Positions 9,445 to 38,913 of a stretch of DNA of 64,000 bases are shown here, piece after piece. A program made the translations under genes and the position numbers. The stretch's first letter is position 1, and the number at the start of each line of letters is the position of its first letter. The DNA lies in NCBI GenBank assembly GCA_025517425.1, contig JAOPJY010000001.1, forward strand, positions 62,001 to 126,000, read 5' to 3'. The notes under the pieces are model-generated. The model made no database searches. It had not been told where the DNA came from and saw only the letters and a list, made by a program, of their open reading frames with translations. The stretch is from Halobacteria archaeon AArc-dxtr1 (GTDB taxonomy: Archaea > Halobacteriota > Halobacteria > Halobacteriales > Natrialbaceae).

Positions 9445-11202
9445 ATGCCAAAGAGACCAATGGCTGATTCGGAACATACTGATTCTAATACGGGTCGGAG
9501 ACTAGCCCAGGGGCTCGGTGGGCTGGGTGCGGTCGGACTGGCCGGCTGCCTGGGCGACAGCGACGACAACGGCGACGACGACAACGGAGAAGACGAGCCA
9601 AACGGGAACGGGCCAGAAAACGGTAATGGTCCAGAAAACGGCAACGGGAACGGTGAGCCCGAGCAGACGTACTGGCATCGGGAGCTGCAGCCCGAGTGGG
9701 GCGAGCCCGACCCAGAGGCGGCGACCGACTGGGATAACTACGAGATCAGCGCCGTCCTCGAGCAAGATTACCTGATGGCCATCGACACCGGCCCCGACGA
9801 CCGCGTCTGGTACATCGAACGCGGCGAATCATTCCCCGTCTGGGGAGACGGGACGTGCGACGTGGGTTGGGTCGACCCCGATACCGAGGAACACGAAGCT
9901 GTCCTCGAACTCGACGTCAAATTCGGCTACGAGGACGGGCAAGACGTAGATCAAACGTCGCGTGAACTAGGCGGTCAGGGTATCGCGCTGGACCCGGCGT
10001 TCGGGGAGAACGGCCACGTCTACATCTGCTACCATCCTTCCTCGGAAGATATGGAAGACATCGGCACGAGCCCGTACGAAGAGTTCTACGACGGCGAGAT
10101 CACATGGGGGTATATGCTGGTCTCACGCTTTGCGTTCGATGGCGACGTGATCGATCCCGCCTCCGAAGAAGAGATCATCCGCATTCCGATACAACTCGAT
10201 GGCTGCTGCCACCACGGCGGCAGCATCCAGTTCGGCCCCGAAGGTCACCTCTACATCTCGACGGGAGATAATACGCAAGCAACACCAGATCTCGCGCCGC
10301 TTGACGACCGTGAAAGCGTGCATCCGGCGTTCGATGCGGCACGGACATCCGGAAATACGGCGGACCTCCGTGGCAAAATCCTTCGGATCACGCCCGACGA
10401 GGACGGGGGCTATTCCGTTCCGGACGGCAATCTGAAGGAGAAACACGAGGAGCATCTGGGCGAGGAGTTCGACGACGAGGAGTTCCGACCCGAGATTCAC
10501 TCGATGGGCTTTCGAAATCCGTTCGTCTTCTCGATCGACGAACACACAGGAGCCATCTTCACCGGCGACTACGCTCCTGGGGGCGGTAATTGGAACACGG
10601 ATCGTGGTCCAATGGGAATCTCCGGCTACCAGCTGATCTGTGAGCCGAGCAACGCGGGATGGCCGTTCTTCAAGGGGTACTATCCGTACCGTCGGTACGA
10701 CTACGAAAGCGACGAGCTCGGGCAGCCGTACTGGATGGACAACCCGCGGAACGATTCGCGCAACAACACGGGGCTCGAGCGAATTCCACCGATCACGCCG
10801 GACTTGATCTGGCACCCCCAGACCGGCCAAGGCGAAGCGTATACTGACGCTCCCGCGTGGGTAGATATGCCCCGGCCTGGAGAGCGCACGTGGCCGATCG
10901 TCGAAGAGGCTGGCGGTGTGAACGGGGGACCGTCGTACCGGTACTCAGAGGAGTTCGGTGAGGGGGCGCTCGATCCGTACTTCGAGGGCAAGCAGTTCTT
11001 CATGGCGCCGTACGGGACGAACATCGGGCCGTTTTACATCACGTTCGCGGAGGACGGGAGTATCGAGATCGACGAGTTCTTGCCGGACGCGCCGTGGCAC
11101 ACACCGATGGAGATCAAGTACGATCCGCAGGGCCGTCTCTACGTGTTGAACTACGCTGAGGATGGCTCTGGTGCCATCTACATGGTCGAGTACGACGGCT
11201 GA
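9445..11202 (+). CDS. Tat-exported lipoprotein, PQQ-type soluble sugar dehydrogenase (copy 1)
   Basis: A 585-residue protein with Tat signal (Arg18-Arg19), lipobox LAGC (Cys35), an Asp/Asn/Gly-rich linker and a six-bladed beta-propeller of the GSDH family. The propeller landmarks CCHHGGSIQFGPEGHLYIS (with the catalytic-type His), GNTADLRGKILRI, MGFRNPF and GWPFFKGYYPY are present. Family members oxidise aldose sugars with PQQ and pass electrons to an external acceptor. It would sit on the outer face of the membrane. Whether PQQ is bound cannot be seen; no PQQ synthesis genes are in the window. It is nearly identical to the gene at 24923-26677 outside the first 20 residues. An ATG at 9460 is an alternative start. 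Confidence 0.85.
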   Translation: MPKRPMADSEHTDSNTGRRLAQGLGGLGAVGLAGCLGDSDDNGDDDNGEDEPNGNGPENGNGPENGNGNGEPEQTYWHRELQPEWGEPDPEAATDWDNYEISAVLEQDYLMAIDTGPDDRVWYIERGESFPVWGDGTCDVGWVDPDTEEHEAVLELDVKFGYEDGQDVDQTSRELGGQGIALDPAFGENGHVYICYHPSSEDMEDIGTSPYEEFYDGEITWGYMLVSRFAFDGDVIDPASEEEIIRIPIQLDGCCHHGGSIQFGPEGHLYISTGDNTQATPDLAPLDDRESVHPAFDAARTSGNTADLRGKILRITPDEDGGYSVPDGNLKEKHEEHLGEEFDDEEFRPEIHSMGFRNPFVFSIDEHTGAIFTGDYAPGGGNWNTDRGPMGISGYQLICEPSNAGWPFFKGYYPYRRYDYESDELGQPYWMDNPRNDSRNNTGLERIPPITPDLIWHPQTGQGEAYTDAPAWVDMPRPGERTWPIVEEAGGVNGGPSYRYSEEFGEGALDPYFEGKQFFMAPYGTNIGPFYITFAEDGSIEIDEFLPDAPWHTPMEIKYDPQGRLYVLNYAEDGSGAIYMVEYDG

Positions 11203-11530
11203 GGAAACCGATACCGGCATCGGGAGAAAGGATCTTGTATCCTGAAAGAGAGCCACTGTGGGGACAGAATACACTTATACTCAGATCGACGTGAAATCAA
11301 TCGATACACCACACGAGCCCAGCAAATAACCACAGTCAGGCTACCGATTTGCAAGTACAATTCGGTCAATTTCCAGCATAGAACCGTTCGATCAATCTGT
11401 ACCGAGCTACTTTCGAGCGTTTCTCTGCAGACATACTCATCTGTTACCGGCGAGCGCCGATTGCTGGTTTAAACGAACCGAACAACTCTACCCGGTTCGT
11501 TCGTGGACTGAAGTTCTGAAAATAAGGAGT
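11203..11530. other. Intergenic region, no gene seen
   Basis: About 330 bp between the sugar dehydrogenase and the small lipoprotein. No motif-bearing frame is present. Confidence 0.4.
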
Positions 11531-11539
11531 CTTATATAC
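11531..11539 (+). promoter_or_regulatory. TATA-like element before the small lipoprotein gene
   Basis: CTTATATAC lies about 37 bp before the ATG at 11572 and only about 16 bp before the ATG at 11551. The spacing favours 11572 as the start. Confidence 0.4.
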
Positions 11540-11571
11540 AATGAACAATTATGGCTAAAAGAGAGTTAGTA

Positions 11572-11793
11572 ATGAACGACAGAGTATTTGACACGAGTAC
11601 CGGAACCAACGACCGGACGGGGAAGCGTGACCGACGAACGTTCCTCCACGCACTAGGGATAACAGGCGTAGTGAGTAGTGCAGGATGCCTCTCCGACCTG
11701 AACGGTGACGAGAACGGTGACGATGGCGATGATGGAGAACCGTCCGCAGGTGCTACCTTCTCGGTCACCATTACAGATGCGTATGCAGAATAG
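11572..11793 (+). CDS. Stub Tat lipoprotein lacking a body domain
   Basis: A 73-residue product (80 if the ATG at 11551 is used) that contains a complete Tat lipoprotein signal (Arg21-Arg22, lipobox SAGC with Cys39) and the usual Asp/Gly/Asn linker. It then stops after only about 13 residues of a beta-strand-like segment (ATFSVTITDAYAE). Neighbouring lipoproteins carry a large domain after the same linker. The phosphoesterase that follows at 12017 has no signal of its own, so this may be its detached export part, separated by later sequence change; alternatively it is a real tiny lipoprotein. Confidence 0.5.
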   Translation: MNDRVFDTSTGTNDRTGKRDRRTFLHALGITGVVSSAGCLSDLNGDENGDDGDDGEPSAGATFSVTITDAYAE

Positions 11794-11850
11794 CGAGTGA
11801 CATTCAGTAACGTTCCAGAGAGACGATTGCAAAATATCGATACCAAACCC

Positions 11851-12024
11851 ATGACTGACCTACAACCGATTATCAACAACTTGCAAGAGGAACGACAGCG
11901 GATCATTACGATTCGGAAGAAAATTCCCACCACAGAGTACGAGCGGATAAACCACTATCAGGCAGCTGAGGGCCGGATCAGGCAGGCGATCGAAGCGCTC
12001 GAAGAGGAACTTGAAGATGAGTGA
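11851..12024 (+). CDS. 57-residue coiled-coil protein coupled to a phosphoesterase gene
   Basis: The predicted protein is highly charged and helical (NNLQEERQRIITIRKKI ... AIEALEEELEDE) with a heptad-like pattern, and no known domain. Its last codons overlap the next gene in ATGAGTGA, a classic arrangement for translational coupling, which is the main reason to accept it. The same frame is open upstream to the stop of the stub lipoprotein. Function unknown. Confidence 0.5.
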   Translation: MTDLQPIINNLQEERQRIITIRKKIPTTEYERINHYQAAEGRIRQAIEALEEELEDE

Positions 12025-13624
12025 TGTATATCCGTACGCGTTGTTGCTGGAAGACCCGACATCGGAGATGGGGATCAGCTGGATCGACGACACGGGCGAG
12101 AGCGGTGGGGCGAGCCAGACGGTCTCGTATGGGACGGAGCCAGACGCATTGGCGGAGAGCGAAGAGGCCGAGGGCGAGGAGTTTCCGGAGTCTGACGGCG
12201 CCTACGTCTACCACACGACACTGACGGGGCTCGAACCCGACACCACCTACCACATCGAAATCGACGCCACCGACTCCCTCACCCACCAGTTCAACACGTT
12301 CCCGCTCGAACGGCCCGAAGAGATGCGGATCGGAATCACCTCCGATCATCACCCCTGGCGCGAGGGCATCGGGATGGCTGACGCCGGAAATGGGGCGGCC
12401 GTGATGGAGGAGTTCGGTCAGTTCGAACCGGACATCGTCTACTACCCTGGTGACTTCGTCACTTTTGCAACCAGCCACACGACCGAAGACACGGAAAATT
12501 GGCTTACGTGGTTCGACGACTACATGGGGGGAATCAACCAGGGCTACCTCAAACCGTTCTTCGCCGGCGCCGGAAACCATGAACTCGCCGAAATCGTCGG
12601 TTGTTGCTGGGAAGGGCGGAAGGAGGGATTCGACTACGAGGATCTAACGCCGGATGCGGGGTACTTCCAGATGCTCTTCCCGAATATCGTCGAGTTAGAC
12701 CCGGTCGGGGAGAACTACGGGAGCGTGACGATTTCGGACTACCTGCAGCTGGTGATGCTCGACTCGCACTCGGCGTTCGTCGACGATCAAGCCGAGTGGC
12801 TCGCCGAGACGATCGATCCGTCGGTAGATCTCGTCGTGCCAGGCTGTCACCAACCCATGTTGCCTGGTGGTGACCGCGGCAGTTACGAGTTGATGGCGAG
12901 TATGCGGTCGCTGTGGGGACCAATCCTCCACGAGGCGCCGAACGTCCAGTGTTACTTCGTTGGCAATGAACACGCCTACAAGAATACGCTTCCCTGGACG
13001 ATCGTCGACGACGAACCCGACCACGACAACTACTTCGACCTCGACGACGAGTTCTTCGACCTGGAAGACGTCGGCTACATGGTCGTCGATGACGGGGTGA
13101 CGACGACCGAAGACACCATCACCAAAGAGAACGGCATCATCGAGTTCGGCGACGGCTGGCCGAACAATCGTGCGATCCCGTCCGAGGAGGGCGACTGGTT
13201 CCTCAATTATGCCGAAGGAGATAGTGTGGATGAGGCACAGTACCAGCTTCTGGACATCTATTCGGAGTCGATGACGATCTCGGAGGTGAACCAGGTCGGC
13301 GAGGCGATGGCAAGTTTCGACTTCGAACTCGCAAACGTCGAGGGTGACGGAGCGATCGTCCAGGCGGGTGAGACGCTCGTCGTCGAAGCAGAGGTCACCA
13401 ACGACGGCGACGAGGCTGGAACCCAGGAGATCACAATGCTTCGGGACAGCTCGGTCGTCGATTCTGTCAGTGACGTCGAGATCGATCCTGGCGAATCGGA
13501 GACGGTCGTCCTCGAGTGGGACGTGATGAGCGGTCACGAGGGTACCTGGGAGATTGAGGTCGTAAGCGACGACGAGTCGGATTCGATCGAGGTTACCGTC
13601 CCGTCCAGTATCGGAGCAAACTGA
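12017..13624 (+). CDS. Purple acid phosphatase-like metallophosphoesterase with CARDB domain, no signal peptide
   Basis: A 535-residue protein. Residues about 4-90 are a fibronectin-III-like domain of the kind found at the N-terminus of purple acid phosphatases. Residues about 95-330 form a calcineurin-like phosphoesterase with metal motifs TSDHH, YPGDF, GAGNHE, CHQP and GNEHAY. The C-terminal part (about 425-530) is a CARDB domain. Enzymes of this type hydrolyse phosphomonoesters or diesters and are usually exported. Here the start ATG lies directly before the fibronectin domain and there is no signal peptide, which is odd. The start overlaps the preceding coiled-coil gene by 8 bases. The catalytic domain appears intact. 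Confidence 0.75.
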   Translation: MSDVYPYALLLEDPTSEMGISWIDDTGESGGASQTVSYGTEPDALAESEEAEGEEFPESDGAYVYHTTLTGLEPDTTYHIEIDATDSLTHQFNTFPLERPEEMRIGITSDHHPWREGIGMADAGNGAAVMEEFGQFEPDIVYYPGDFVTFATSHTTEDTENWLTWFDDYMGGINQGYLKPFFAGAGNHELAEIVGCCWEGRKEGFDYEDLTPDAGYFQMLFPNIVELDPVGENYGSVTISDYLQLVMLDSHSAFVDDQAEWLAETIDPSVDLVVPGCHQPMLPGGDRGSYELMASMRSLWGPILHEAPNVQCYFVGNEHAYKNTLPWTIVDDEPDHDNYFDLDDEFFDLEDVGYMVVDDGVTTTEDTITKENGIIEFGDGWPNNRAIPSEEGDWFLNYAEGDSVDEAQYQLLDIYSESMTISEVNQVGEAMASFDFELANVEGDGAIVQAGETLVVEAEVTNDGDEAGTQEITMLRDSSVVDSVSDVEIDPGESETVVLEWDVMSGHEGTWEIEVVSDDESDSIEVTVPSSIGAN

Positions 13625-13786: not shown

Positions 13787-13809
13787 GTATAATACGTCTA
13801 CGAGAGTGT

Positions 13810-14607
13810 ATGCGACGTCGGTACGTTCTCGCCTCTAGTGTCGGACTGCTCGTCGGGAGCGCTGGGTGTCTCGACGAGGTCGACGTTCCGAGAGATGACG
13901 ATGATGCGGAGGACGATACAAACGGCAACAAGACCGATGAAGATGACGACGGAGATACTAATGGTGAGGCTGCAAATTTCGAGGTTTTAGCTCTCGACCA
14001 GGCGACAATCGAGGTAACAGGAGAGGAACCTATCGACGTTCACGCGACCGTGACCAACACCGGCGATCGAGCGGGTGAGCGAACGGTCCGACTGTGGATC
14101 GGTACCGATGTCGTCTCTACACGAGAGATATCGCTCGAACCGGGCGAAGAGGAGACCGTCTCGTTCGAGGATGTCGCACTCGCTGATTTTGGACCCGGTG
14201 AGTACACGATACTCGTCACCTCGGGGAATACGGAAACGACTGGCACGCTACTAATAGAGCAATCCCTCGACCCCGACGACTGGGCAGATGTAACCTCAGT
14301 TCGGCTCTTGGCCCACAGTGCCGGCTGGATCGGCGTCGAACCGACAATGATCGAAGGAGTAGAGAACCCAACCGTTCTCCTGTCCGAGGGAGTCGAATAC
14401 GAACTCACCTGGGAAGAAGACGACTGTAGCAGCCACAACATCGAACTCAGAGATGTGAACGATCAGGTCGTCGGTGAGTATGTGACACCAATCGAAGGTG
14501 GATGTGGGGTTACACAGTCGCTTACGTTCGAGGCAGACTCGGATATGCAATATTACGTCTGCGACCCCCACGCGAGTTCGATGCGAGGGAGGATCGAACT
14601 CGCGTAG
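13810..14607 (+). CDS. Tat lipoprotein with CARDB and cupredoxin (blue copper) domains
   Basis: A 265-residue protein with signal MRRRYVL and lipobox SAGC (Cys20), an acidic linker and a CARDB-like domain (about residues 55-150). A C-terminal cupredoxin domain (about 165-265) has candidate type-1 copper ligands: His in SSHNIEL and the Cys-His-Met set in YYVCDPHASSM. The His-to-Met spacing is three residues, one shorter than in plastocyanin. Two further Cys (DDCSSH and GGCGV) could form a disulfide. Cupredoxins carry electrons, so it could accept electrons from the nearby PQQ-type dehydrogenases; that link is inference from proximity. The frame is open upstream, but the promoter and signal fix the start at 13810. 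Confidence 0.8.
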   Translation: MRRRYVLASSVGLLVGSAGCLDEVDVPRDDDDAEDDTNGNKTDEDDDGDTNGEAANFEVLALDQATIEVTGEEPIDVHATVTNTGDRAGERTVRLWIGTDVVSTREISLEPGEEETVSFEDVALADFGPGEYTILVTSGNTETTGTLLIEQSLDPDDWADVTSVRLLAHSAGWIGVEPTMIEGVENPTVLLSEGVEYELTWEEDDCSSHNIELRDVNDQVVGEYVTPIEGGCGVTQSLTFEADSDMQYYVCDPHASSMRGRIELA

Positions 14608-14992: not shown

Positions 14993-16708
14993 ATGACAAA
15001 CGAAACAGACAGCAAGCGAAGACAGTTACTGAAGGCGGTAGGTGTCGTCGGGACGGCTAGCCTTGCCGGCTGCCTGGGAGACGACGATGAGAACGGCGAC
15101 GACGATGAGAACGGCGACGACGATGAGAACGGCGACGACGAGGGAGAGGCTACGTTCGAAGTGACCGGACTCGAGCCGGGGGAGACGACAGTAACGTGGC
15201 ACGATTCTGTCGGCGTCTCAGCGACCGTCTCGAACACCGGTGACGCGGACGGCGAGCAAGACGTCCAACTGCAGGTTGGCGACGACGAACACGGAACGGA
15301 AACCGTCGTGCTGGAGGCGGGCGCGGAGAGTGAAATTATCTTCGACGCCATCGAAACGGATTCCCTCGACGTGGGTGAACACACGTACGGAGTGTATTCG
15401 GACGACGACGACGAAACTGCGACGTTGACCATCGAGACCTTCGGAGACGACCCCGAACACGTGTTCTCGCTCGACGACGCGAGCGGCGATGTGATCGTCC
15501 TCTCATCCGGGACGGACACCCTCACCGGAACGCTCGCGAACCCGTTCCCGTTCGATCTCGAATCCGGAGAAGCCCAACTCGAGGCGGATGGAGTAGACGT
15601 ATCGTCTGCGGATGGTGAACACTTTGATACGCTTTCGGCAGGCGATTCACAGACCGTCGAGTGGGACGTCGACGTTCCTGACGGTGCGGGGGAGGAGTAC
15701 TCGCTTACGGTTTCCGTGACGTACGCCGCTGGCGGTGACGACGGCGAGGAAGAGCACTCGTTCACGGGCGTCGTCGAGGACGAGGCGTCGCTCTCCACAC
15801 AGGATCTCTCACTCGACGAGTTAGGTCCGCAGTGGGTACACGCGTACGCCACTCAAACCGACGAGATGCCAACCGGCGAACCCGCGTTCAGTATGCCGGC
15901 GACTGACGACCACGTCGACTTCGAGGGGGACGACTGGGGCGGAGAGGAGGACCTCTCTGCAGAGCTCTACCTCGGATACAACTCGGACAACTTCTACCTC
16001 CGCGTTCTCGTCACCGACGACTACCACAATACCGTCGCCGGCGAGACGATGTGGGAAGGCGACTCGATTCAGTTCGCCACCGAAGAGGACCTCACCCACA
16101 GTGCAGACTACGCTGTCCGACACGACCCCGACGATGGCCCCGAACTACACCAGTACGTACCGCCTCAGGGCGACGGGGACATAGACGACATCGAGGCCCA
16201 TACGGAGCGCGAGGGTGACGTTACGACGTACGAACTGGAGATCCCGTGGGAGGCATTCCGGAGTTCCACTCCGGGTCCTGGGGACAGTATCCCCTTCGAC
16301 ATCGTCGTTCACGAGCGTGACGAAGAAGACGACTGGCGTGGAGCGATCAGCTACGGCAACTTTTCGATCTTCTTCCCGCAGACACCCGAACACCAGGGCC
16401 TCGTCACACTCTCGAGCGATGGGGAGGATCTCCCGTGGGAGGTCGCACCGGTTCCGGAGGGGCCAGAGAGCCTCGATGCTGGTGAACAGGGAAGTTGGAC
16501 ATTCACCGTAGTCAACTGGGCGGAAACCGAACAGGAGATCTCGTTCGAAGCCCAGGGTACGGATAGTGCAGGTGATATCGTGATCGATGCGGAAAGTGCA
16601 GCGCAGGTAGTGCTCGACTGGACGCTGTTCGACGACGAGACGATCAGCGTCGAGTTCGACAACGGAGAGGAAACGGTCACGTCCGAGATCGACGTCTCGG
16701 TCAGCTAG
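14993..16708 (+). CDS. Tat lipoprotein with CARDB, NEW3-like and CBM9/DOMON-like sugar-binding domains
   Basis: A 571-residue protein with signal KRRQLLK and lipobox LAGC (Cys27). A linker is built from three copies of an 18-base repeat encoding DDENGD units. Then come a CARDB-like domain (about 50-145), a NEW3-like beta-sandwich (about 155-270) and a CBM9/DOMON-type domain (about 285-475) with EDLSAELYLGYNSDNFYLR and MWEGDSIQFA, ending in another beta-sandwich. CBM9-like domains bind sugars or haem; no catalytic motif is seen. I infer a carbohydrate-binding surface protein. Confidence 0.75.
   Translation: MTNETDSKRRQLLKAVGVVGTASLAGCLGDDDENGDDDENGDDDENGDDEGEATFEVTGLEPGETTVTWHDSVGVSATVSNTGDADGEQDVQLQVGDDEHGTETVVLEAGAESEIIFDAIETDSLDVGEHTYGVYSDDDDETATLTIETFGDDPEHVFSLDDASGDVIVLSSGTDTLTGTLANPFPFDLESGEAQLEADGVDVSSADGEHFDTLSAGDSQTVEWDVDVPDGAGEEYSLTVSVTYAAGGDDGEEEHSFTGVVEDEASLSTQDLSLDELGPQWVHAYATQTDEMPTGEPAFSMPATDDHVDFEGDDWGGEEDLSAELYLGYNSDNFYLRVLVTDDYHNTVAGETMWEGDSIQFATEEDLTHSADYAVRHDPDDGPELHQYVPPQGDGDIDDIEAHTEREGDVTTYELEIPWEAFRSSTPGPGDSIPFDIVVHERDEEDDWRGAISYGNFSIFFPQTPEHQGLVTLSSDGEDLPWEVAPVPEGPESLDAGEQGSWTFTVVNWAETEQEISFEAQGTDSAGDIVIDAESAAQVVLDWTLFDDETISVEFDNGEETVTSEIDVSVS
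15080..15138 (+). repeat. Tandem 18-bp repeat in the lipoprotein linker
   Basis: The unit GACGATGAGAACGGCGAC is repeated about three times in frame, encoding an Asp/Glu/Asn/Gly spacer. Repeat number could vary by slippage. Confidence 0.8.
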
Positions 16709-16766: not shown

Positions 16767-18545
16767 CTACTCGGGCAAACTGACGTCGAGTTCCGGTTCG
16801 AGTATCGTTTCGAACAATCGCGGCCACGGAAGCGATATTTCGAGAGTTGAGAGTTCGTCGATCGTTCCGTGTTTCAGTTCGCCATCCGAGTATCCGAACT
16901 CGACTGGCTCGCCGACAAAGTGATCCTCGGCGTACGTCTCGACGAACGGTCCCAGTTCGTCTTGGACGAACGCTTCGAGTACCTCCACTTCGTCGGGTTC
17001 TAAGTCGTACACGTTAGCGTCCATCGACCACCCCTCTGCGTACGCGTCCGGCTGGACGACGTTCTTCCAGTAATCGTCCTTCGTGAGTCTGTGCAGTAGA
17101 TAGTTGACGTGTGCCTCGGCAGGGTCGTGGAGATCGGTAACGTCGGGGTAGTCGCCACTTTCCTGGAGAAATGCCCATCGGGAGAGGCCGTGGCCCGTCG
17201 CAATTCCAAGCGCATTGCCGGCGGTGTTCCACGCAGAGAAGGCGAGCAGCTGGGAGACGGCTATCTCGGCTTCCATCCGTTCGGTCAACTCTGGATCGGC
17301 CGCGTTCACCTCAACTGCATCCAATACGATGACTGGATCGTCGTTTTCGAGGTGTGTGGCGATGTCAGAAACGAACGCGTCTAGCTCGTCTGCCCGGCTT
17401 TCACCCTCTTGAGTGGGTGTGTTGACCATGAGGTGGATATCAGGGTCCGATTCGACGACCTGAGCGCCCGAGACTTCCAGATGTTTGGCGATGTTCTCGT
17501 CGTACGGAATATCTTCGTACACCGGGATCCAGTCTTCGCCGTGCACGCCGGAATACTCTACTGACACGCGAGGCGTTAGATCGAACAGCTCCGTGACGTA
17601 TCGAGCAACGAACGTGGTGTCGTTTTCGTCCGCACCCGGGAAGACCTCAACGCGGTCGTCGACGCCGAGGTCGCCGATTAAATCGAGCAGTTCTTCGCGT
17701 TCAGGTCGGTGAAGGCCCACCTCGTCGGCGTCGTCCTGACCGAGAATGAGATAATCGATCTTGTCATCAGCCAGTTGTTCTATCACGTACCGATTGACCT
17801 CGTGGTTGCGCTCACGGGAGTCCAGATAGTCCTCGATGACTTCGTCTGGGAGCTGTTCTTCGACGTCCTCGAGGTCGTCGGCGTACTCTTCTTCGCCGAG
17901 GTTTTCGACGCGATCGACGAGCGTCGCCCACTCTTGAAGCAGACTTTCGTCGAAGTCATCACTCCCGAGGAATGTCGGCGCTAACCGCTGAATCGTGTCG
18001 TATACGAGTATTGTCGCATCCGGGTGCTCGTCGCGCAGTTCGGATAACACTTCGACGTTCGACATCGCCTCCTCTTGGGACATCTCCGGGACGCGGGAAG
18101 CTATCAATCCGCCGTAGACGAGCATATCGACAGAGATGATGAAGCCGTCGACGTCATCTACCGAGAGCAGCCACTCTCCGATCTCGTCTCCGTTCCCCGG
18201 CGTTTCGAAGAAGCCGATTTGATCCTCGGGTGGAAATCGAGTCTCTACGTCAGCCGTGGCAGCTGTCATCTCGGGAAAATAGATGTTCGCGGGTCGATCG
18301 TCGAGTGGAACGATCGCTAGCGTATCCTCGATAAGGTTGGATTCACCGTTTCCGTTGCCCAGACCGTTTTCCGTCCCGTTGCTAGTGTCATCGTCACCAT
18401 TCCCGTTATCGGTGTCATCGTCCTCCAGATCGGAGAGACATCCCGCAGCAACGGTACCCGCGCTGGCTGCACCCAACAACCGAAGAAATCTTCTTCGATG
18501 GTTTTCGGACGTCTCCGTCTGACGATCGGTATTTCTCAATCGCAT
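16767..18545 (-). CDS. Tat lipoprotein of the DUF4127 family
   Basis: A 592-residue protein with signal HRRRFLR and lipobox AAGC (Cys36), an Asn/Gly/Asp linker, and a DUF4127 body from about residue 75 to the end. Typical DUF4127 landmarks are IVPLDDRPANIYFPE near the start, DMLVYGGLIASR, and LGQDDADEVGLHRPE. The family's biochemical function is not established; in bacteria it often lies near sugar genes. ATG 18545 is preferred to a GTG four codons upstream, and a TATA-like CATATAC lies about 32 bp upstream. An export signal on this family is worth noting. Confidence 0.8.
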   Translation of the reverse strand: MRLRNTDRQTETSENHRRRFLRLLGAASAGTVAAGCLSDLEDDDTDNGNGDDDTSNGTENGLGNGNGESNLIEDTLAIVPLDDRPANIYFPEMTAATADVETRFPPEDQIGFFETPGNGDEIGEWLLSVDDVDGFIISVDMLVYGGLIASRVPEMSQEEAMSNVEVLSELRDEHPDATILVYDTIQRLAPTFLGSDDFDESLLQEWATLVDRVENLGEEEYADDLEDVEEQLPDEVIEDYLDSRERNHEVNRYVIEQLADDKIDYLILGQDDADEVGLHRPEREELLDLIGDLGVDDRVEVFPGADENDTTFVARYVTELFDLTPRVSVEYSGVHGEDWIPVYEDIPYDENIAKHLEVSGAQVVESDPDIHLMVNTPTQEGESRADELDAFVSDIATHLENDDPVIVLDAVEVNAADPELTERMEAEIAVSQLLAFSAWNTAGNALGIATGHGLSRWAFLQESGDYPDVTDLHDPAEAHVNYLLHRLTKDDYWKNVVQPDAYAEGWSMDANVYDLEPDEVEVLEAFVQDELGPFVETYAEDHFVGEPVEFGYSDGELKHGTIDELSTLEISLPWPRLFETILEPELDVSLPE

Positions 18546-19015
18546 TGATGTGTACACATACCGATAACACGACCATATACATTGTGCTATTCTACACTGA
18601 CGCGAATGATGATTTATTACTGAGGGTTACTGAATAGGCCAGTGGCCATCTGCGCTCTTCTATGAGTTTTGTTGGCCTCACTAGAGAAGCTACCGTTCTA
18701 ACGCTTGTCGGTCCACCCCTCGGGAGCACTATAGACACACTCACCCCAGAACTGAAGAGAGAGGATGCAATCCACCCGTAGTACGGTTCGGATAGATTCA
18801 CGAATAGTTCTCCAGCGTTCAGAACCCATAACGACTGCACAATAACTCACTTTGAGAGCGCTTGTTGGACTTCTAGTTGGACATGTTGTAAAATATTGGC
18901 CAAATTGAAAAAACCATAACCCAATCACATTAAGAGAATCTTGAACTTACGGTTGATGTATATGATATGAACAACAAGTTATATTTAAAATAGTATCTAT
19001 GTAACGATCATTCGC
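18546..19015. other. Divergent promoter region, 470 bp
   Basis: It lies between the DUF4127 gene (minus) and the LamG gene (plus). It contains a 12-bp palindrome ATGTGTACACAT (18548-18559) immediately upstream of the DUF4127 ATG, a TATA-like element for that gene at 18573-18580, and an AT-rich TATA block at 18981-18990 for the LamG gene. No gene is supported. Confidence 0.5.
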
Positions 19016-21426: not shown

Positions 21427-21741
21427 ATGTGTGACAACAGCCGTCAGGCCGAGACTACTGTCGGTGAAAACCGCCGTCGAGTGCTCAAAGGAATCGGTGC
21501 GACGGGCACCATGGGCCTCGTCGCCGGTTGCCTCAGTTGGATGGATGCAGAATCTGATGAGAATGATGACGATGGGTCCAAAGCAAACGGTAACGGGACC
21601 GACATTGAATGGCTGACTGTCACGTCGGGCGAAACGGAGACGCTCTCTGCAACGGAACTGAAAGCCATTACTGGCGTTACGCTGGAACGAGCCTCGTCAA
21701 TGACGTTCGAGCGGGGGGCTACCCTCCGCGTGGAATCATGA
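21427..21741 (+). CDS. Short Tat lipoprotein coupled to a polysaccharide deacetylase
   Basis: A 104-residue protein with signal NRRRVLK, lipobox VAGC (Cys35), a polar linker and a short Thr/Ser/Glu-rich beta segment (about residues 60-104). No known domain fits. Its stop codon overlaps the start of the next gene (ATGA at 21738-21741), so the two products are made together. It may anchor or chaperone the downstream deacetylase, which lacks a signal; that is inference. Confidence 0.7.
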   Translation: MCDNSRQAETTVGENRRRVLKGIGATGTMGLVAGCLSWMDAESDENDDDGSKANGNGTDIEWLTVTSGETETLSATELKAITGVTLERASSMTFERGATLRVES

Positions 21742-27769: not shown

Positions 27770-28269
27770 GCTTTTGTGTGATAGATGTACGCTGGGTCGA
27801 GTCGGCTCGTAGAGGTGACGTCGAAATCCATGCCAACAGTACGATCTCTGCGGGCGACCGAATCACCCCAGTCTACTCCACGCCACCGACCCCTCCCAGT
27901 GAATCTGCACTCCGGGCGTATACCGGCCATCTGTATATTCCAGGAACGCACAACATCCATATAATGGTTTTATATTTATCCAAACACAAAGAGATGTGTT
28001 ATATTCCGGAAGCGTATTTTTCGAGGATCACGAATGCCGACGGCTCCGGTTGAAGGGCCAACGTAGGCAGTGAAGGATTGAGGATATTGGTCCGAAATCG
28101 CTCGTATGCAAAGACAACCCCCTTGTGGCCGAGTCAGCGTCTATTGTGGCCGAGCCAACAAATCGACCGAACGGAGATACCGGGGCACATTCATGAGTTT
28201 CTCAGTATGGGCCGAGACTAACGCTCTCCTATCCATAGAGAGACGATTCGTCGGTAAACTATGTCGTCC

Positions 28270-31570: not shown

Positions 31571-34144
31571 ATGGGTTCGCAGACCGAGCGTCTGAGACGG
31601 CGTGAGACATCACTACCAAGGCGGCAGTTGCTGATGGCGGCGGGCGGGACCGGTGCGGTAACGCTGGCTGGGTGTTTCGGGCTCGAGGAACTGGGCGACG
31701 ATGACGGGGCGTTCTTCGACGTTTCCGAGATTACCCCGACAGAGACGACTGCTTCGCAAGGCGAGTCGATCAACGTCTCTGCGACAATTACGAACACCGG
31801 GGACACATCGGCAACCCAGACGATCGAGTGCGATATTGACGGGACCGTCGTTGCAGACGAAGAGCTGACCCTGGCCGAGGGCGAATCTGAGACGGTTCAT
31901 TTCGACGAGATCAGTACATCGGATCTTGGTATCGAAACGCACACGTATCGAATTGCGAGCGACGACGACGAGAAAACAGGGGAACTGACGGTTCAAATCG
32001 AGGAGGTCAGTGTTCTCGTCTTTTCTGCGACCGACGAGACTCGTCGCGAGTCGATCGAAACGGGCAACGAGGCTATCGAAGCTCTCGCCTCAGACATTGC
32101 CGACGAGGTGAGCGCCAACGAAGTTACGATCGACGTCATCGAGGCTGATACCTCCGAGTTTCCGTCCAGCCACGACACCCTACAGGAGTACGACACTGTC
32201 GTCTGGAACAACACGACAGGTGCCGTTCTGAACGAAGAGCAGCGAATGGCGTTCCAGTGGTACATCCAAGGCGGGGGTGGGTTTGCCGGCATCCATGCTG
32301 CCGCCGAAACGCACCACGATTGGACGTGGTACGGCGAGCTGATTGGGGCTTACGCGGAGAACGCCCCCGACGTCCAGCCGGCCGACGTTCAGGTAACCGA
32401 CCGCAGTCACCCATCTACCAGCGATCTTCCCGCTCGATGGGAGGTCGAGGACGAGTGGTACGATTTCGACCAGAATCCTCGCGGTGACGTCCACGTCCTC
32501 GCGAGCGTCGACGAGCGAACGTACGACGGTGCAGCGATGGACGGCGGCCTCGCGGACCATCCGATCAGTTGGTGTCACGAATTCGATGGCGGTCGAGCGT
32601 GGTACACCGCGCGCGGCCACACGGAAGATGCGTTCGAGGAAACTCACTTCCTCGAGCATCTGAAAGGTGGTATTCTCTGGTCTGCAGGCGTTCTAGACGG
32701 CGGTGCGACGGGAACTGTGTGGGACCAGTTCACTGTCGAGTCGATCACCGACAACACCGGGGAGCCGATGAAACTGGACGTCGGACCGGACGGGCGTCTC
32801 TTCCACAGCAGCCGCCAGGGGGAACTCTTCATCACCGACCAGGAGTCGGGCGAAACGACGACCGCGCTCGTACTCGACGTCTACACCGGCGAAGAAGACG
32901 GCGTGCAGGGAATCAGTCTCGATCCGAATTTCGAGGAGAACGGCTGGATCTGGGTCTTTTACTCGCCCGCGGAGACGCCTGGCTCACCCTACGAGTACAG
33001 TCCATACGAGGTGGAACGAGCCTCCCAGTATCAGAATCTCCCCTACTGTCGGCTGTCTCGGTTCGACGTGGACGGTGAGACGATTGATCCGGATTCGGAG
33101 GTCGAAGTTCTTCGCGTGGAGATGCAACGCGAATCGTGCTGTCACGTCGCTGGCGACATCGTGTTCGACTCGGAGGGATACCTCTACCTCTCGATCGGAG
33201 ACGACACGAACCCGTTCGAATCCGACGGATACGCGCCGATCGACGAACGAGAGGGCAACGAGTACATCGATGCGCAACGAACGTCGGGGAACACGAACGA
33301 TCTACGGGGCAGTATCTTACGCATCCGCCCCGAAGACGACGGTTCCTACTCCATTCCTGAGGACAATCTGTTTCCCGAGGCGGAGTACGAAGAGGCGATC
33401 GCAGAGAGGCTGGTTCGTCCCGAGATCTACGTGCTCGGACTCCGAAATCCGTTCACGATGGCCATCGACCCGGAAACGGACGACCTCGTGTTCGGCGATT
33501 ACGGCGAAGGCGCCGGCGGGTGGAGCGACGAACGCGGGGCGCTCGGGCTGGTACAGTTCTATCGTACGTCGGAACCGATCTACGCTGGTTGGCCGTACTT
33601 TGCTGGACCGAACTACCCGTACACGGATTGGAACTTCGAGACCGAAGAGGTAGCGGGCGTCTTCGATCCGGAGCAACCGATCAATGACTCTCCGAACAAC
33701 GATGGACTGACAGAGCTCCCACCGGCGACCAAAGCGACACACTGGTACCCAATGACGTGGAACTCCTATACTGGTGGCGGTGAACCGGATTACATCGAGC
33801 TAGAGGCAGGTCCCGATACAATCCCGCATCCGGGAATTCCCGGGGGAAGCGGTGGGCCGATGACGGGACCGATCTATCGCCACGACGAGGAGTTTGCCGA
33901 CACGGCGCTTCCGGAGTACTACGATGGCAAACACCTGATTATGGACTACCACGATAACTGGACGCTCATCGCCACCTACGACGAGGATGACGAACCCCTG
34001 ACGGTCCACGAGTTTCTCCCCGAGCAGTTGCTACTGGAGTCACCCTTCTACGCGACGATTGGTCCCGAAGGACACCTCTACGTGATGGAGTACGGGGCCG
34101 GCGCTTCCAGTCCACAAATCTATAGAGTCTATCATGAAGAATGA
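31571..34144 (+). CDS. Tat lipoprotein fusion: CARDB, ThuA-like domain and PQQ-type sugar dehydrogenase
   Basis: An 857-residue protein with signal LPRRQLLM and lipobox LAGC (Cys35). A CARDB-like domain (about 46-145) is followed by a ThuA-like domain (about 146-375) with GFAGIHAAAETHHDW, EWYDFDQNPRGDVHVLA, DHPISWCHEFDGGRAWYT and a C-terminal GGILWSAG. From about 380 to the end there is a GSDH-type propeller with ESCCHVAGDIVFDSEGYLYL, GNTNDLRGSILRIRP, LGLRNPFTMA and AGWPYFAGPNYPY. ThuA works on 3-keto-trehalose-type sugars in bacteria, and GSDH propellers oxidise sugars, so a single surface protein combines both steps. Biochemistry of this exact fusion is inferred. Confidence 0.88.
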   Translation: MGSQTERLRRRETSLPRRQLLMAAGGTGAVTLAGCFGLEELGDDDGAFFDVSEITPTETTASQGESINVSATITNTGDTSATQTIECDIDGTVVADEELTLAEGESETVHFDEISTSDLGIETHTYRIASDDDEKTGELTVQIEEVSVLVFSATDETRRESIETGNEAIEALASDIADEVSANEVTIDVIEADTSEFPSSHDTLQEYDTVVWNNTTGAVLNEEQRMAFQWYIQGGGGFAGIHAAAETHHDWTWYGELIGAYAENAPDVQPADVQVTDRSHPSTSDLPARWEVEDEWYDFDQNPRGDVHVLASVDERTYDGAAMDGGLADHPISWCHEFDGGRAWYTARGHTEDAFEETHFLEHLKGGILWSAGVLDGGATGTVWDQFTVESITDNTGEPMKLDVGPDGRLFHSSRQGELFITDQESGETTTALVLDVYTGEEDGVQGISLDPNFEENGWIWVFYSPAETPGSPYEYSPYEVERASQYQNLPYCRLSRFDVDGETIDPDSEVEVLRVEMQRESCCHVAGDIVFDSEGYLYLSIGDDTNPFESDGYAPIDEREGNEYIDAQRTSGNTNDLRGSILRIRPEDDGSYSIPEDNLFPEAEYEEAIAERLVRPEIYVLGLRNPFTMAIDPETDDLVFGDYGEGAGGWSDERGALGLVQFYRTSEPIYAGWPYFAGPNYPYTDWNFETEEVAGVFDPEQPINDSPNNDGLTELPPATKATHWYPMTWNSYTGGGEPDYIELEAGPDTIPHPGIPGGSGGPMTGPIYRHDEEFADTALPEYYDGKHLIMDYHDNWTLIATYDEDDEPLTVHEFLPEQLLLESPFYATIGPEGHLYVMEYGAGASSPQIYRVYHEE

Positions 34145-34502: not shown

Positions 34503-35975
34503 ATGAGTAATGATATGGTTGATGAAGATTCCCACGCGCCTGCTGATGGGCACGGGAACCATCTAGATACCGACTCACCCCCTTCCACACTCGCGGCAAA
34601 TGAACGCACTCAATCGGGGAGTCACGACCAGAACTCCACGTCCACAGAGACCCAATCTATCGAAGAGATGATTCTCGAATTCGACAAGCAGGACAAGCTA
34701 ATCAAGGATCGTTCGCTTCTGGACTCTACAAAGGTCGTCAAGGAGGATCGGATCGTCGGTCGAGACGATCAGCTTCAGGACGTCACGAAGATGCTTCGCG
34801 TTGCTCTCGGAAACAACCGCCCCCCGAATCTCTTTCTGTATGGCCCTTCTGGCACCGGAAAGTCACTGATCACAAAAGCAGTCTGTAAAAACATTTCGCG
34901 TATCTGTGAGACGCGTGATATCCGGTTTGGCACGATCGAAGTGAACTGCCAGGATCTGGATACCCTTGGTGTGGCCGTCTACGAACTGGCCAAGCGTGCT
35001 GCAGAGGAGTCAGGAGACGAGGTACGCGTCCCCAAGCACGGGATTTCGACCAAGGAGAAGTGGAACGAACTCTACCGCATCGTCAACGAGAACTTCGATT
35101 CTGCGGTGTTCGTCCTCGACGAACTCGACATGCTCGTCGGTCGGCGCGACAAGGATGAGCCCGCATTTTCCCGACTCCTGTATCAACTCTCTCGGGCTGG
35201 TGCGAACAATGAGCTGTCTGCGTTCGTCTCTGTCGTTGCCATTTCGAACAACGTCAAAATGATGGAGTACGTCGGGAGCCGCGCGCTGAGTTCGTTTACT
35301 CCAGAGGACGTTCACTTCGACGATTACGATGCAAATCAGTTACAGGCGATCCTTCACCGTCGAAAAGATGCGTTTTACGAGGATGTCCTCGACGAAGACG
35401 TTATCCCGCTGGCATCTGCCTTCGCGGCACAGACACACGGCGACGCGCGAAAGGCGATCGATCTGATTCGCGTCGCTGGGGAACTCGCCGAGCGCGAGGG
35501 AGACACTCGTGTTCGCGAACAACACGTCCGGCGGGCCCAGGATAAAGTGGAAAAGAATCGTGTTCTTGAGGTTATACGCGGCATCAGCACGCAAAAGAAG
35601 CTGTGTCTGTACGCAACCGCCTCAGTCGCAGCTGAAACAAATACTGGCTCTGCCCGGAGCACAATCGGATATCACGTCTACCAGTACATTACGAGCTCGA
35701 TCGATGCAGATCAGTACCATCAAGAAACCTACGTGAATAAAATGAAGGAGTTAACGACGTACTCGCTGGTCGACTTCGAGCGTCGGAGTTACGGTCCGCG
35801 ATCGGGAATGTTCCTCGAATTCCAGTTTGCCGAGCGACCACAAACGATTCTGAACACACTTCGGGAAGATTCGCGGCTGGATATGGTGTCCCACGAGGAT
35901 GTCGTAGAAATTGTCACCACACAGTTACGCGATCAAAATACGCCGGCGAAGTCGAACGTTGATTGGCACGTGTGA
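34503..35975 (+). CDS. Orc1/Cdc6-family replication initiation protein
   Basis: A 490-residue AAA+ ATPase. An acidic, low-complexity N-terminal tail of about 50 residues is followed by the AAA+ core with Walker A GPSGTGKS (114-121), Walker B FVLDELDML (about 200) and sensor-type VVAISNNVKM. The C-terminal third is a winged-helix DNA-binding domain. Family members bind origins and load MCM; haloarchaea carry many paralogues, often in accessory regions. The TATA-like block lies 27 bp before the second ATG (34515), so that may be the true start. No origin repeats are visible beside it. Confidence 0.85.
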   Translation: MSNDMVDEDSHAPADGHGNHLDTDSPPSTLAANERTQSGSHDQNSTSTETQSIEEMILEFDKQDKLIKDRSLLDSTKVVKEDRIVGRDDQLQDVTKMLRVALGNNRPPNLFLYGPSGTGKSLITKAVCKNISRICETRDIRFGTIEVNCQDLDTLGVAVYELAKRAAEESGDEVRVPKHGISTKEKWNELYRIVNENFDSAVFVLDELDMLVGRRDKDEPAFSRLLYQLSRAGANNELSAFVSVVAISNNVKMMEYVGSRALSSFTPEDVHFDDYDANQLQAILHRRKDAFYEDVLDEDVIPLASAFAAQTHGDARKAIDLIRVAGELAEREGDTRVREQHVRRAQDKVEKNRVLEVIRGISTQKKLCLYATASVAAETNTGSARSTIGYHVYQYITSSIDADQYHQETYVNKMKELTTYSLVDFERRSYGPRSGMFLEFQFAERPQTILNTLREDSRLDMVSHEDVVEIVTTQLRDQNTPAKSNVDWHV

Positions 35976-36010: not shown

Positions 36011-36020
36011 ATTATTATAT
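36011..36020 (+). promoter_or_regulatory. TATA box of the Gfo/Idh/MocA operon
   Basis: ATTATTATAT is centred 26 bp before the ATG at 36041, consistent with a leaderless operon transcript. Confidence 0.5.
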
Positions 36021-36040
36021 GCAACTGAGAAAGACAAGTT

Positions 36041-37003
36041 ATGCGAGTTGGTATCGCAGGAGCTGGCTTCATGGCTAGTACACACGCTACCGAGTATGCT
36101 GAGATGGATCTCGACGTTGTCGCCGTTGCATCACCCAGCGGTCCGGAGGAGTTCGTCGACGAATTTGGGTTTGAGGCTGACTCGTACACGGACGTCAGAG
36201 AGATGTGTCTTGATGCTGAAATAGACTTTCTCGATATTTGTACGCCGACGCACACACATCGAGACCTCGTCCAAACCGCCGCGGAAACCGGAGTCGATGT
36301 ATTCCTCGAGAAACCGATTGCGAGGACCCTCGATGACGCCCACGAGATCGTCGATATCGTGAACAGTTCCGGAATCGTTTGTATGGTCGGACACGTTGTC
36401 CGATTTATGCCAAGTCACGAGAACGCGCGCACCCTCGACGTCGGTGAACCCGGCGTCACTCGAGCCCGGCGAATGGCGCCATTTCCCGACTGGGGATCGG
36501 CCGACTGGTTTTCCGACCGCGACAAGAGCGGCGGAATCTTTGTGGATCTGGCAATCCACGACCTTGACTATCTGCGCTGGTGCTGGGGCGACGTCGAGCG
36601 CGTGTTTGCTCGACGGCACCGAGACGAGAAGTGCGAACACGGGTTCGTGACGCTTCGCTTCGAAAACGGTGCAGTGGGGTACGTCGAGGCGTCGTGGGCA
36701 CAGCCGGATTCTCGGCCGTTTACCGTCGAACTCGAGTTCGCCGGCGACGATGGACTCGTCGAATTCTCTTCGACGAACGAGATTCCGTACCTCGAGTGGG
36801 CAAACGGCGAGTGCAGTAAGGAAAGCCCAATTGCGAGAAACGGTTACCGACGTCAGCTCGAACATTTTGTAGACTGCCTCGAGAACGACACCGAACCGGC
36901 TGTGGGGCCCGAAGAGGCCCTCGCATCGTTGCGGTTGGCGCTGGCTGCCGAACGATCCGCAGAGCTGGGTGAATCCGTCGCCCTCAGCGAGGTGATCGCA
37001 TGA
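36041..37003 (+). CDS. Gfo/Idh/MocA-family sugar dehydrogenase (1)
   Basis: A 320-residue cytosolic oxidoreductase. The N-terminal Rossmann motif GIAGAGFMAS, the catalytic-lysine motif LEKPI and the His-Asp pair in DLAIHDLDYLRW are visible. Family members oxidise or reduce sugars and inositols with NAD(P), often at C3. It is the first gene of an operon with a second family member (4-base ATGA overlap) and a PIG-L deacetylase. In bacteria, such pairs act with ThuA and DUF1080 proteins in 3-keto-glycoside metabolism; both of those families occur upstream in this window. Confidence 0.85.
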   Translation: MRVGIAGAGFMASTHATEYAEMDLDVVAVASPSGPEEFVDEFGFEADSYTDVREMCLDAEIDFLDICTPTHTHRDLVQTAAETGVDVFLEKPIARTLDDAHEIVDIVNSSGIVCMVGHVVRFMPSHENARTLDVGEPGVTRARRMAPFPDWGSADWFSDRDKSGGIFVDLAIHDLDYLRWCWGDVERVFARRHRDEKCEHGFVTLRFENGAVGYVEASWAQPDSRPFTVELEFAGDDGLVEFSSTNEIPYLEWANGECSKESPIARNGYRRQLEHFVDCLENDTEPAVGPEEALASLRLALAAERSAELGESVALSEVIA

Positions 37004-37989
37004 CGGTTTCAGTCGGCCTTCTCTCGGCGGCTCACGTACATACGGAAGTCTATGCAGAGTTACTCTCCGAGCACGACGACGCGACGCTCCACGGGGTTAC
37101 CGATATCAACATCGAACAGGGACGCGAAACTGCAGACCAACACGATACCCAGTTCGTCTCAGACGCAGATGAGTTGCTCGATCAGATCGATGCCGCGGTT
37201 ATTTGTTCGCCCAACGTTGATCACCGAGACTGGTTCGAACGGGCGGCTGCAGCCGACGTCGATGTTCTCTGCGAGAAGCCCCTCGCAACCACCGCCTCGG
37301 AGGCTGAGTCGATGGTCGAAACGTGGCGCGAGTCCGGAATCAATGCCGGTGTCGCCATGCCGCTTCGGTTTTGCGAGCCCGCCCGTCTTGCCAAAGAAAC
37401 GATAGCGGACAACGGAATTGGGTCCGTTCTCTCGCTTTCTGGTACCAATCGCGGACTGATGCCGGGAGGCTGGTTCGTCGATCCAGAGGCCGCAGGTGGC
37501 GGAGCTGTGATGGACCACACCGTTCACATTGTCGATCTCGTGGCGCATCTCCTCGGAGAGTGGCCAGCCGAAGTGTATGCAGAGGTCGGTACTCGAATGC
37601 ACGATATCGACGTGGAGGACGTCAACGTTCTCTCCATGGAGTTGGCCGACGGAACGCCGTTCCTTCTCGACGGATCGTGGAGCAAGCCCGACACGTGGCA
37701 CACGTGGGGTGACGCGACGCTCGAGATAACCGGTGCCGAGGGAGCCCTCTCCATCGATTGTACTGGTCGCTCGATCGAGTACACCGTCGAATCCGGTCCG
37801 AAAGCGGGGATCAACCGGGAATCGTACGGTACCAGCGCAAACGCCGGGTTGATCGACGACTTCGTAGCTGCGGTGCGTGACGGGCGTAATCCTCAAGTCA
37901 CGCCCGAGCAGGGTCTGCAGGCCGTTCGTGTCGTCGAGGCTGCCTACGAGTCGGCAGATGCTCAAGCGCCGGTACCGATTCAGCGGTGA
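37000..37989 (+). CDS. Gfo/Idh/MocA-family sugar dehydrogenase (2)
   Basis: A 329-residue paralogue of the preceding enzyme with motifs CEKPLATT (catalytic Lys) and GGGAVMDHTVHIVDLVAHL (His/Asp). The Rossmann glycine motif is less canonical (VGLLSAAHVHTEVYAELL), a variation seen in other family members. It starts inside the stop of gene 1 (ATGA), which points to coupled translation and possibly a joint complex or sequential reactions. The substrate cannot be read from sequence. Confidence 0.83.
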   Translation: MTVSVGLLSAAHVHTEVYAELLSEHDDATLHGVTDINIEQGRETADQHDTQFVSDADELLDQIDAAVICSPNVDHRDWFERAAAADVDVLCEKPLATTASEAESMVETWRESGINAGVAMPLRFCEPARLAKETIADNGIGSVLSLSGTNRGLMPGGWFVDPEAAGGGAVMDHTVHIVDLVAHLLGEWPAEVYAEVGTRMHDIDVEDVNVLSMELADGTPFLLDGSWSKPDTWHTWGDATLEITGAEGALSIDCTGRSIEYTVESGPKAGINRESYGTSANAGLIDDFVAAVRDGRNPQVTPEQGLQAVRVVEAAYESADAQAPVPIQR

Positions 37990-38082
37990 TCAGCCGACGC
38001 TGCTGGTTTTCGTCGTGTGACAGGCCCAAGAGGGTAGTGCCGTGATCCAAACTAGTCCGATCATCAACTTCGAGTCCCAAAC

Positions 38083-38913
38083 GTGACTGAACAAACTCAC
38101 CTGCTGGTCGTCGGTGCACATCCTGACGACTGCGAGATCAAGGCCGGAGGTATCGCTGCAAAATACGTCGAGGCAGGACACAACGTGACCTTTCTCTCGG
38201 TGACCGATGGCAGTGCGGGCCATCACGAGATGGATCGTGAGGAACTGGCCGCTCGACGAAAACGAGAGACCGAGGCCGTCGCCGAAACACTCGGCATATC
38301 GTACGACGTGTTCGACATTCCCGACGGCTGTCTCGAGCCGACACTCGAGAATCGGCGACGGCTCGTTCGGTTCATTCGCGAGATCGAGCCGGATCTCGTC
38401 CTCGGGCCACGCCCGAACGATTACCACCCAGACCACCGCTACTGTGCGCAATTGCTCCGAGACGCTGCATACATGCTGATCGTTCCGAACGTCTGCCCAG
38501 AGACGCCAGCCCTCGCCGAGAACCCGGTGTTTGGGTACATTGCCGATCACTTTCAAAAGCCCGCGCCGTTCGAGCCGGACATCGTCCTCGACGTCTCTGA
38601 CGTTGAACAACGAAAGCTCGATGCGCTGCACTGCCACGAGTCACAGGTGTACGAGTGGCTCCCGTTCACGTTCGACGAAATCGACGACGTTCCCGACGGC
38701 GCCCAGGAACGTCGTCGGTGGCTCGCAAACGACGGGCTGAGTCACCTAGTCGAGCACACCGAAATGAACGTCGCGGATCGCTTCCGCGGGCAGCTCACAG
38801 AGCGGTACGGCGACGAACGCGGTAGTGCAGTCACGCACGCCGAGGCCGTAGAGATCTCCCCCTACGGTGCGCCGCTGACGGACGAGCGAAGTAACGAGCT
38901 ATTTTTCTTCTAG
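38083..38913 (+). CDS. PIG-L/LmbE-family deacetylase
   Basis: A 276-residue zinc-dependent deacetylase. The signature VVGAHPDDCEIKAGG gives the His-Asp-Asp zinc site and catalytic base, and the third zinc His lies in DYHPDHR. Members remove N-acetyl groups from GlcNAc-containing glycoconjugates. GTG is the start codon. It lies 93 bp after the second dehydrogenase on the same strand, likely as the last gene of the operon. This suggests that an acetylated amino sugar is among the substrates of the region. Confidence 0.85.
   Translation: MTEQTHLLVVGAHPDDCEIKAGGIAAKYVEAGHNVTFLSVTDGSAGHHEMDREELAARRKRETEAVAETLGISYDVFDIPDGCLEPTLENRRRLVRFIREIEPDLVLGPRPNDYHPDHRYCAQLLRDAAYMLIVPNVCPETPALAENPVFGYIADHFQKPAPFEPDIVLDVSDVEQRKLDALHCHESQVYEWLPFTFDEIDDVPDGAQERRRWLANDGLSHLVEHTEMNVADRFRGQLTERYGDERGSAVTHAEAVEISPYGAPLTDERSNELFFF

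Follow-up and report, generated by a model that had tools for sequence, protein, structure and literature searches.

Bacterial 3-keto pathways proceed through oxidation, elimination, hydration, and reduction (PMC10628242, PMC7676230), as in the GlycDH-OGE-HYD-Gfo pathway of Agrobacterium (PMC10628242) and the levoglucosan pathway of Bacillus smithii (PMC7676230), and in Caulobacter LacABC is accompanied by a proposed periplasmic 3'-ketolactose hydrolase of the DUF1080 family (PMC9007349). The subject of this study is an island of surface proteins at about 9.4-34.1 kb of a 64,000-nt stretch of a 2.8 Mb haloarchaeal genome (G000:C1:62001-126000, hereafter the window; G000 is the genome carrying the window, and other G numbers denote related genomes compared with it). 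On balance, and with modest confidence, we favour the view that this island is one of several loci in G000 for a cell-surface oxidative glycoside-degrading system, which is present elsewhere in haloarchaea as giant multidomain proteins and here has most of its domains on separate lipoproteins. The open-access PMC literature yielded no account of DUF1080/GSDH/cupredoxin proteins in haloarchaea.

Similar to the bacterial 3-keto pathways, the haloarchaeal system would draw on the DUF1080, TIM-barrel, and Gfo/Idh/MocA families, and, as proposed for Caulobacter, oxidation and cleavage would be placed outside the cytoplasm. Unlike these pathways, its outer dehydrogenase is a putative GSDH propeller with blue-copper domains instead of LacABC or Gfo, and its parts are either united in giant proteins or distributed over separate lipoproteins. 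The propeller family, the catalytic His, and the Arg-Asn motif are shared with the family of soluble quinoprotein glucose dehydrogenase (sGDH) and aldose sugar dehydrogenase (PDB 1c9u, 2ism, 3a9g), whereas the haloarchaeal GSDH domains are distant from them (profile E 1e-11 to 1e-15) and fused to ThuA, DUF1080, and cupredoxin domains. Streptomyces fungicidicus (NZ_CP023408.1) also carries a ThuA-GSDH fusion adjoined by DUF1080 and multicopper oxidase genes, but no cupredoxin or malectin domain was detected in its proteins and DUF1080 is a separate protein. A GSDH-PKD-cytochrome c-CBM6 protein of Runella slithyformis (NC_015693.1) likewise has GSDH, an electron carrier, and a carbohydrate-binding module in one chain, although haem c replaces blue copper and neither ThuA nor DUF1080 is included. 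Related proteins of the GSDH-ThuA, DUF1080, and GSDH-cytochrome c kinds are thus known from bacteria, while the fused carrier of haloarchaea is a blue-copper domain. Unlike a classical polysaccharide utilisation locus based on glycoside hydrolases, the window has no glycoside hydrolase or dedicated transporter among the open reading frames (ORFs) scanned, as an earlier note on this DNA had stated; conserved-type transporter genes are present elsewhere in G000. The features of the island, assigned with Pfam plus NCBIfam models, are as follows (positions within the window; Tat, twin-arginine translocation).

9445..11202 (+): GSDH1, a Tat lipoprotein with a quinoprotein-type sugar dehydrogenase propeller (Pfam GSDH 3.9e-15)
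11572..11793 (+): short Tat/lipobox ORF, probably the 5' end of a broken lipoprotein gene (frame inspection)
12011..13624 (+): purple-acid-phosphatase-like metallophosphoesterase without signal peptide (Pfam 5.2e-12, 6.4e-9)
13810..14607 (+): CARDB-plastocyanin (blue copper) lipoprotein (Pfam Copper-bind 1e-4, above cut-off)
14993..16708 (+): CARDB-NPCBM-CBM9-like Tat lipoprotein (Pfam; CBM9 borderline at 23.1 bits, cut-off 23.4)
16767..18557 (-): DUF4127 Tat lipoprotein (Pfam 3.5e-124)
19016..21250 (+): CARDB-NPCBM-LamG-LamG Tat lipoprotein (Pfam 1.7e-33)
21609..23105 (+): polysaccharide deacetylase of NodB type lacking a signal peptide (Pfam 1.1e-6)
23158..24732 (-): Tat lipoprotein with two DUF1080 domains (3-keto-disaccharide hydrolase family; Pfam PF06439 1.4e-39)
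24923..26677 (-): GSDH2 lipoprotein (Pfam 3.1e-18)
28396..30771 (+): lipoprotein with two CARDB and three malectin domains (Pfam Malectin 1.3e-52; second CARDB from a local hidden Markov model, HMM)
31571..34144 (+): CARDB-ThuA-GSDH3 Tat lipoprotein (Pfam ThuA 3.5e-66, GSDH 4.2e-25)
34503..35975 (+): Orc1/Cdc6 initiator of replication, within the island (TIGR02928 416.6 bits, above cut-off)

The three GSDH propellers and the ThuA, malectin, LamG, DUF4127, and NodB domains named in the earlier note were all recovered by Pfam, as were the PIG-L deacetylase and the two adjacent Gfo/Idh/MocA enzymes discussed below; its two DUF1080 domains lie within one protein, and the CBM9 match is borderline. 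The plastocyanin lipoprotein, the CARDB domains found in most island lipoproteins, the Orc1/Cdc6 gene, and the TrmB, glucose-dehydrogenase-like, and DgaE-like genes (4903-8957) were absent from that note. Binding and the first steps had been assigned to Tat lipoproteins, and at the N-termini of most island proteins a twin-arginine motif and a lipobox are indeed seen; however, neither signal is visible in the NodB protein and the metallophosphatase ORF, and in GSDH2 and the malectin protein the lipobox is not accompanied by a canonical twin arginine. The plastocyanin lipoprotein (13810-14607), which keeps all copper ligands (an upstream His, plus Cys, His, and Met in C-D-P-H-A-S-S-M), is proposed to be the electron acceptor.

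Sequences of the separate window proteins match successive parts of a single protein of 1745 aa encoded at G000:C2:3069-8306, which run in the order plastocyanin, CARDB, GSDH (62% to GSDH2), DUF1080 (64% to the window DUF1080 protein), malectin (43%), and plastocyanin (46%); its start and the membership of the first copper domain are only provisional, because a Tat/lipobox-like stretch occurs inside the protein near residue 160. GSDH1 shares 59% identity with the GSDH portion of this fused protein, and GSDH2 is 87% identical to GSDH1 across residues 73-584. In the GSDH tree, GSDH1 and GSDH2 are sisters nested with the fused C2 protein (100/99), which is consistent with the splitting of, or shared descent with, a fused form. 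Fused proteins of ~1,100-1,970 aa with the same modules (copper, CARDB, GSDH, ThuA or DUF1080, malectin, and exported TIM barrels) are present in G002, G018, G284, G106, G198, G242, G222, and G250, and shorter fusions in G320, which is placed in the same family (f1) as G000. These architectures were assigned partly with small local HMMs and partly with Pfam. Some fusions join ThuA and others DUF1080 to GSDH, and in one protein of G284 ThuA, GSDH, and malectin are combined with exported TIM barrels and a pair of copper domains.

Several further observations concern these counterparts. A repeated protein of 361-388 aa (copies 86-98% identical) precedes each of five giant proteins at G284:C1:1105001-1160000, and G242 has similar copies. 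Large plasmids carry relatives of the system in the genera Natronococcus, Haladaptatus, and Halocatena. As well, a fragment at G000:C1:1717470-1719233, perhaps a decaying copy, matches the end of the ThuA-GSDH protein with 71% identity and adjoins copper-domain ORFs.

In G000 this GSDH clade is represented by 12 genes, and paired DUF1080 domains are found in four proteins, while the clade (E <= 1e-20) is absent from 78 of 80 relatives, with G002 and G018 the only others to have it; the domain set of the window is therefore not a matter of chance. At the order level (342 genomes, 89 genera), the GSDH clade was found in 12 genomes, DUF1080 above cut-off in 14, and both in eight against 0.49 expected (P=3e-10), and six genera were shared between nine with the GSDH clade and 11 with DUF1080 (P=6e-5), the P values being indicative only because the genomes are not independent. 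The earlier note had proposed a search for such co-occurrence and named missing co-conservation as a refutation; the excess, far above chance, rules this out for the surface families. Together with the single-protein fusions, which extend to other haloarchaeal families, the co-occurrence supports a functional link among GSDH, DUF1080, ThuA, and the carbohydrate-binding modules. The combination, which the earlier note took to look novel, is not confined to this locus and recurs in e.g. Natronococcus sp. CG52, Haladaptatus pallidirubidus, and Halocatena salina. A scan of genome contigs with the ThuA-GSDH protein returned three bacterial ThuA relatives and nothing else, and viral contigs searched with the GSDH profile gave no match.

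Conserved active-site motifs were also found. Ten GSDH sequences contain an invariant His and Arg-Asn-Pro (invariant columns H166, R267, and N268) aligned to the catalytic and pyrroloquinoline quinone (PQQ)-binding motifs of sGDH, in which the His is catalytic and the Arg-Asn binds PQQ. A His/Glu/Asp set is invariant in the exported TIM barrels, and the DUF1080 domains share conserved residues with 4qhz.

Genes that accompany GSDH proteins elsewhere suggest further steps. A companion Gfo, whose sequences form a single clade with strong support (100/100), is encoded close to GSDH proteins in G000:C4, G002, G106, G198, G222, and G284, mostly accompanied by a cytosolic TIM barrel, and the C4 member is nearest to levoglucosan dehydrogenase (310 bits, cut-off 650). 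Besides this Gfo, the C4 locus contains lipoproteins with GSDH (three in tandem), malectin (one), and CARDB-copper domains (two), as well as two cytosolic and three Tat-exported TIM barrels of AP_endonuc_2 type, one of the exported barrels having no Pfam match of its own. The exported barrels are IolE-like, and in sister genomes such barrels and a levoglucosan-dehydrogenase-like Gfo stand beside fused-type proteins; both are known to accompany 3-keto-sugar chemistry. A four-gene BMP-type ATP-binding cassette (ABC) transporter is found near GSDH proteins in G002, G284, G106, G222, G320, and G351, and a multicopper oxidase in G002, G106, G198, G222, G250, and G320; the BMP transporter of G000 is at C1:1116589-1121344.

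Two side observations touch these neighbours. An inositol-3-phosphate synthase-like gene adjoins the BMP transporter in G000 (C1:1107001-1127000), and in Natronococcus sp. CG52 and G002 both are likewise encoded in the vicinity of GSDH/DUF1080 proteins. TatD, TIM barrel, and UbiA genes at five loci (L143, L129, L121, L132, and L140) resemble the bacterial ebo cluster; several such gene sets adjoin GSDH loci, and the EboE model is under its cut-off in G000.

Comparative evidence strongly supports the central idea of the earlier note, sugar use by oxidation at the cell surface. The reactions themselves, the oxidised position (C3 or C1), the cofactor, the electron path, and the substrate are inferred. 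Malectin, LamG, and CBM9-like domains would hold the glycan, and the GSDH propellers, with a quinoprotein sugar dehydrogenase fold, would oxidise a sugar hydroxyl outside the cell, plastocyanin domains taking the electrons and passing them to respiration or to a multicopper oxidase. The oxidised glycoside might then be cleaved by DUF1080, ThuA, and exported TIM-barrel domains (the barrels encoded elsewhere in G000), on the model of the bacterial hydrolases, eliminases, and hydratases that act in 3-keto-glycoside breakdown. The products would be imported, possibly via the BMP-type transporter, reduced by the levoglucosan-dehydrogenase-like Gfo, and directed into an Entner-Doudoroff route. More tentatively, and as a possibility we hold less firmly than the surface system itself, a giant surface polypeptide may unite oxidation, blue-copper electron transfer, and cleavage of the oxidised glycoside with no classical glycoside hydrolase, G000 having secondarily split it into lipoproteins.

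Several results weigh against this scheme. PqqE was not above cut-off in G000, and a search of 11 genomes with GSDH revealed no PqqC, a weak result since control genomes gave no match either; the PQQ would therefore be scavenged, or the cofactor would be other than PQQ. The window itself has no TIM barrel and, as noted, no transporter. Upstream of genes, a TrmB-like operator motif showed no enrichment (1/32 vs 3/130) and a de novo dyad scan gave nothing. AlphaFold models of the DUF1080 protein and GSDH2 were too poor to be used (mean predicted local distance difference test scores, pLDDT, of 34 and 42). Moreover, C1 rather than C3 is the position at which characterised members of the GSDH family oxidise aldoses.

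The last point leads to surface oxidation at C1, in which GSDH would turn free reducing ends into lactones and DUF1080 would act as an endo-glycosidase, with no 3-keto chemistry. The nearest solved GSDH relatives include quinoprotein glucose dehydrogenase, and genes ~5-10 kb to the right of the window resemble, as read by eye, a semi-phosphorylative Entner-Doudoroff set. A DUF1080 protein has also been reported as an endo-xanthanase/lichenase (PMC9007349). However, the levoglucosan-dehydrogenase-like Gfo, the IolE-like exported barrels fused to DUF1080, and ThuA fit 3-keto chemistry, and such conserved neighbours have no obvious part in C1 oxidation, so we regard the C1 alternative as unlikely, though it deserves to be kept in mind.

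The surface oxidative system that we favour is not the only gene set in the window. The lipoprotein island sits between the two halves of a second module, listed here together with the regulator gene on its flank:

4903..6006 (-): TrmB-family sugar-responsive regulator, on the flank (Pfam Regulator_TrmB 1.2e-44)
6674..7741 (-): glucose-dehydrogenase (GDH)-like enzyme with Glu_dehyd_C (Pfam 7.3e-94)
7743..8957 (-): DgaE-like ammonia lyase dependent on pyridoxal phosphate (PLP) (NCBIfam TIGR01437 191 bits, under the cut-off of 385)
36041..37003 (+): Gfo1 oxidoreductase (Pfam 1.2e-24; tree)
37000..37989 (+): Gfo2 oxidoreductase (Pfam 7e-20; tree)
38083..38913 (+): PIG-L deacetylase (Pfam 2.7e-30)

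The proximity of all these genes, within 34 kb, invites the idea of a single pathway for an N-acetylated glycan (e.g. a chitin-like polymer) that would employ the lipoproteins, NodB, PIG-L, the Gfo pair, and the GDH-like and DgaE-like enzymes together. The window PIG-L has the same fold as archaeal diacetylchitobiose deacetylases (PDB 3wl4, 3we7, 8bgn; E ~1e-16 to 1e-17), which are among its PDB matches, but its best match is the LmbE-related 2ixd and it belongs with the neighbouring module. Relatives of the GDH-like enzyme are 66-74% identical, two of them adjoining DgaE/PIG-L (G077, G046), and DgaE-like relatives, 62-72% identical, are found in G077, G002, G046, and G030, the one in G002 within a GSDH/DUF1080 locus, which would suit a single pathway. 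Relatives of Gfo1, Gfo2, PIG-L, and the GDH-like and DgaE-like enzymes cluster in varied combinations in G005, G030, G036, G046, and G077, beside RidA-like, PLP-dependent, and dipeptide-type ABC transporter genes (assigned by reading the sequences). None of these five genomes gave a DUF1080 or GSDH-clade match in the searches of 80 relatives, and G005 and G036 gave none in either order-level search (GSDH clade, DUF1080). Gfo1-Gfo2 occur with PIG-L genes in G005, G030, and G036, hence without GSDH or DUF1080, the GSDH/DUF1080 loci examined lack the Gfo1-Gfo2-PIG-L set, and the Gfo clades differ, all of which makes a single pathway improbable. To judge from sequence, Gfo1-Gfo2-PIG-L and GDH-DgaE belong to a separate neighbouring module, which probably acts on N-acetylated amino sugars.

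The keto-glycoside idea of the earlier note is accordingly supported in part, for its surface families, which fusions and co-occurrence link, but not for the window Gfo pair, which was considered as the partner dehydrogenase and ruled out by the tree (other clades) and by co-occurrence (other module). Against the BT_2158/BT_2159 equivalog models Gfo1 and Gfo2 score 18.7-29.9 bits (cut-offs 750 and 650).

That the island is a mere binding or structural surface layer of degenerate enzymatic folds, lectin-like or serving adhesion, is very improbable, for although binding domains and paralogues are many, known PQQ synthesis genes were not found, and hedgehog-interacting protein, a GSDH-fold relative, is a binding protein and not an enzyme, the catalytic and metal-ligand residues are conserved across the families and GSDH is joined in one chain to electron carriers, either copper domains or, in Runella, cytochrome c.

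The GC content is 0.53-0.60 over ~4 to 40 kb of the window vs 0.60-0.70 across most flanking sequence, and acquisition of this lower-GC region from elsewhere would fit. The Orc1/Cdc6 gene (34503-35975), which directly follows the ThuA-GSDH gene, is in this region, hinting at a former extrachromosomal replicon. Because the Tat/lipobox ORF at 11572-11793 lies upstream of the metallophosphatase ORF (12011-13624) in a different frame, the metallophosphatase gene looks disrupted, and 11572-13624 probably represents one or two damaged genes. A minus-strand relic in several frames (26916-27844) matches PHROG tail spike proteins (1.2e-16) and has an N-terminal stretch in common with the NodB protein (48% over 68 aa), which itself has no match in PHROGs.

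If the surface oxidative system is real, it would add an oxidative, copper-linked attack on glycans to the haloarchaea, one overlooked by surveys of classical glycoside hydrolases. The fusions join the poorly understood GSDH, ThuA, and DUF1080 families to one function, which could be tested in haloarchaea already in cultivation, among them Natronococcus sp. CG52, Haladaptatus pallidirubidus, and Halocatena salina.

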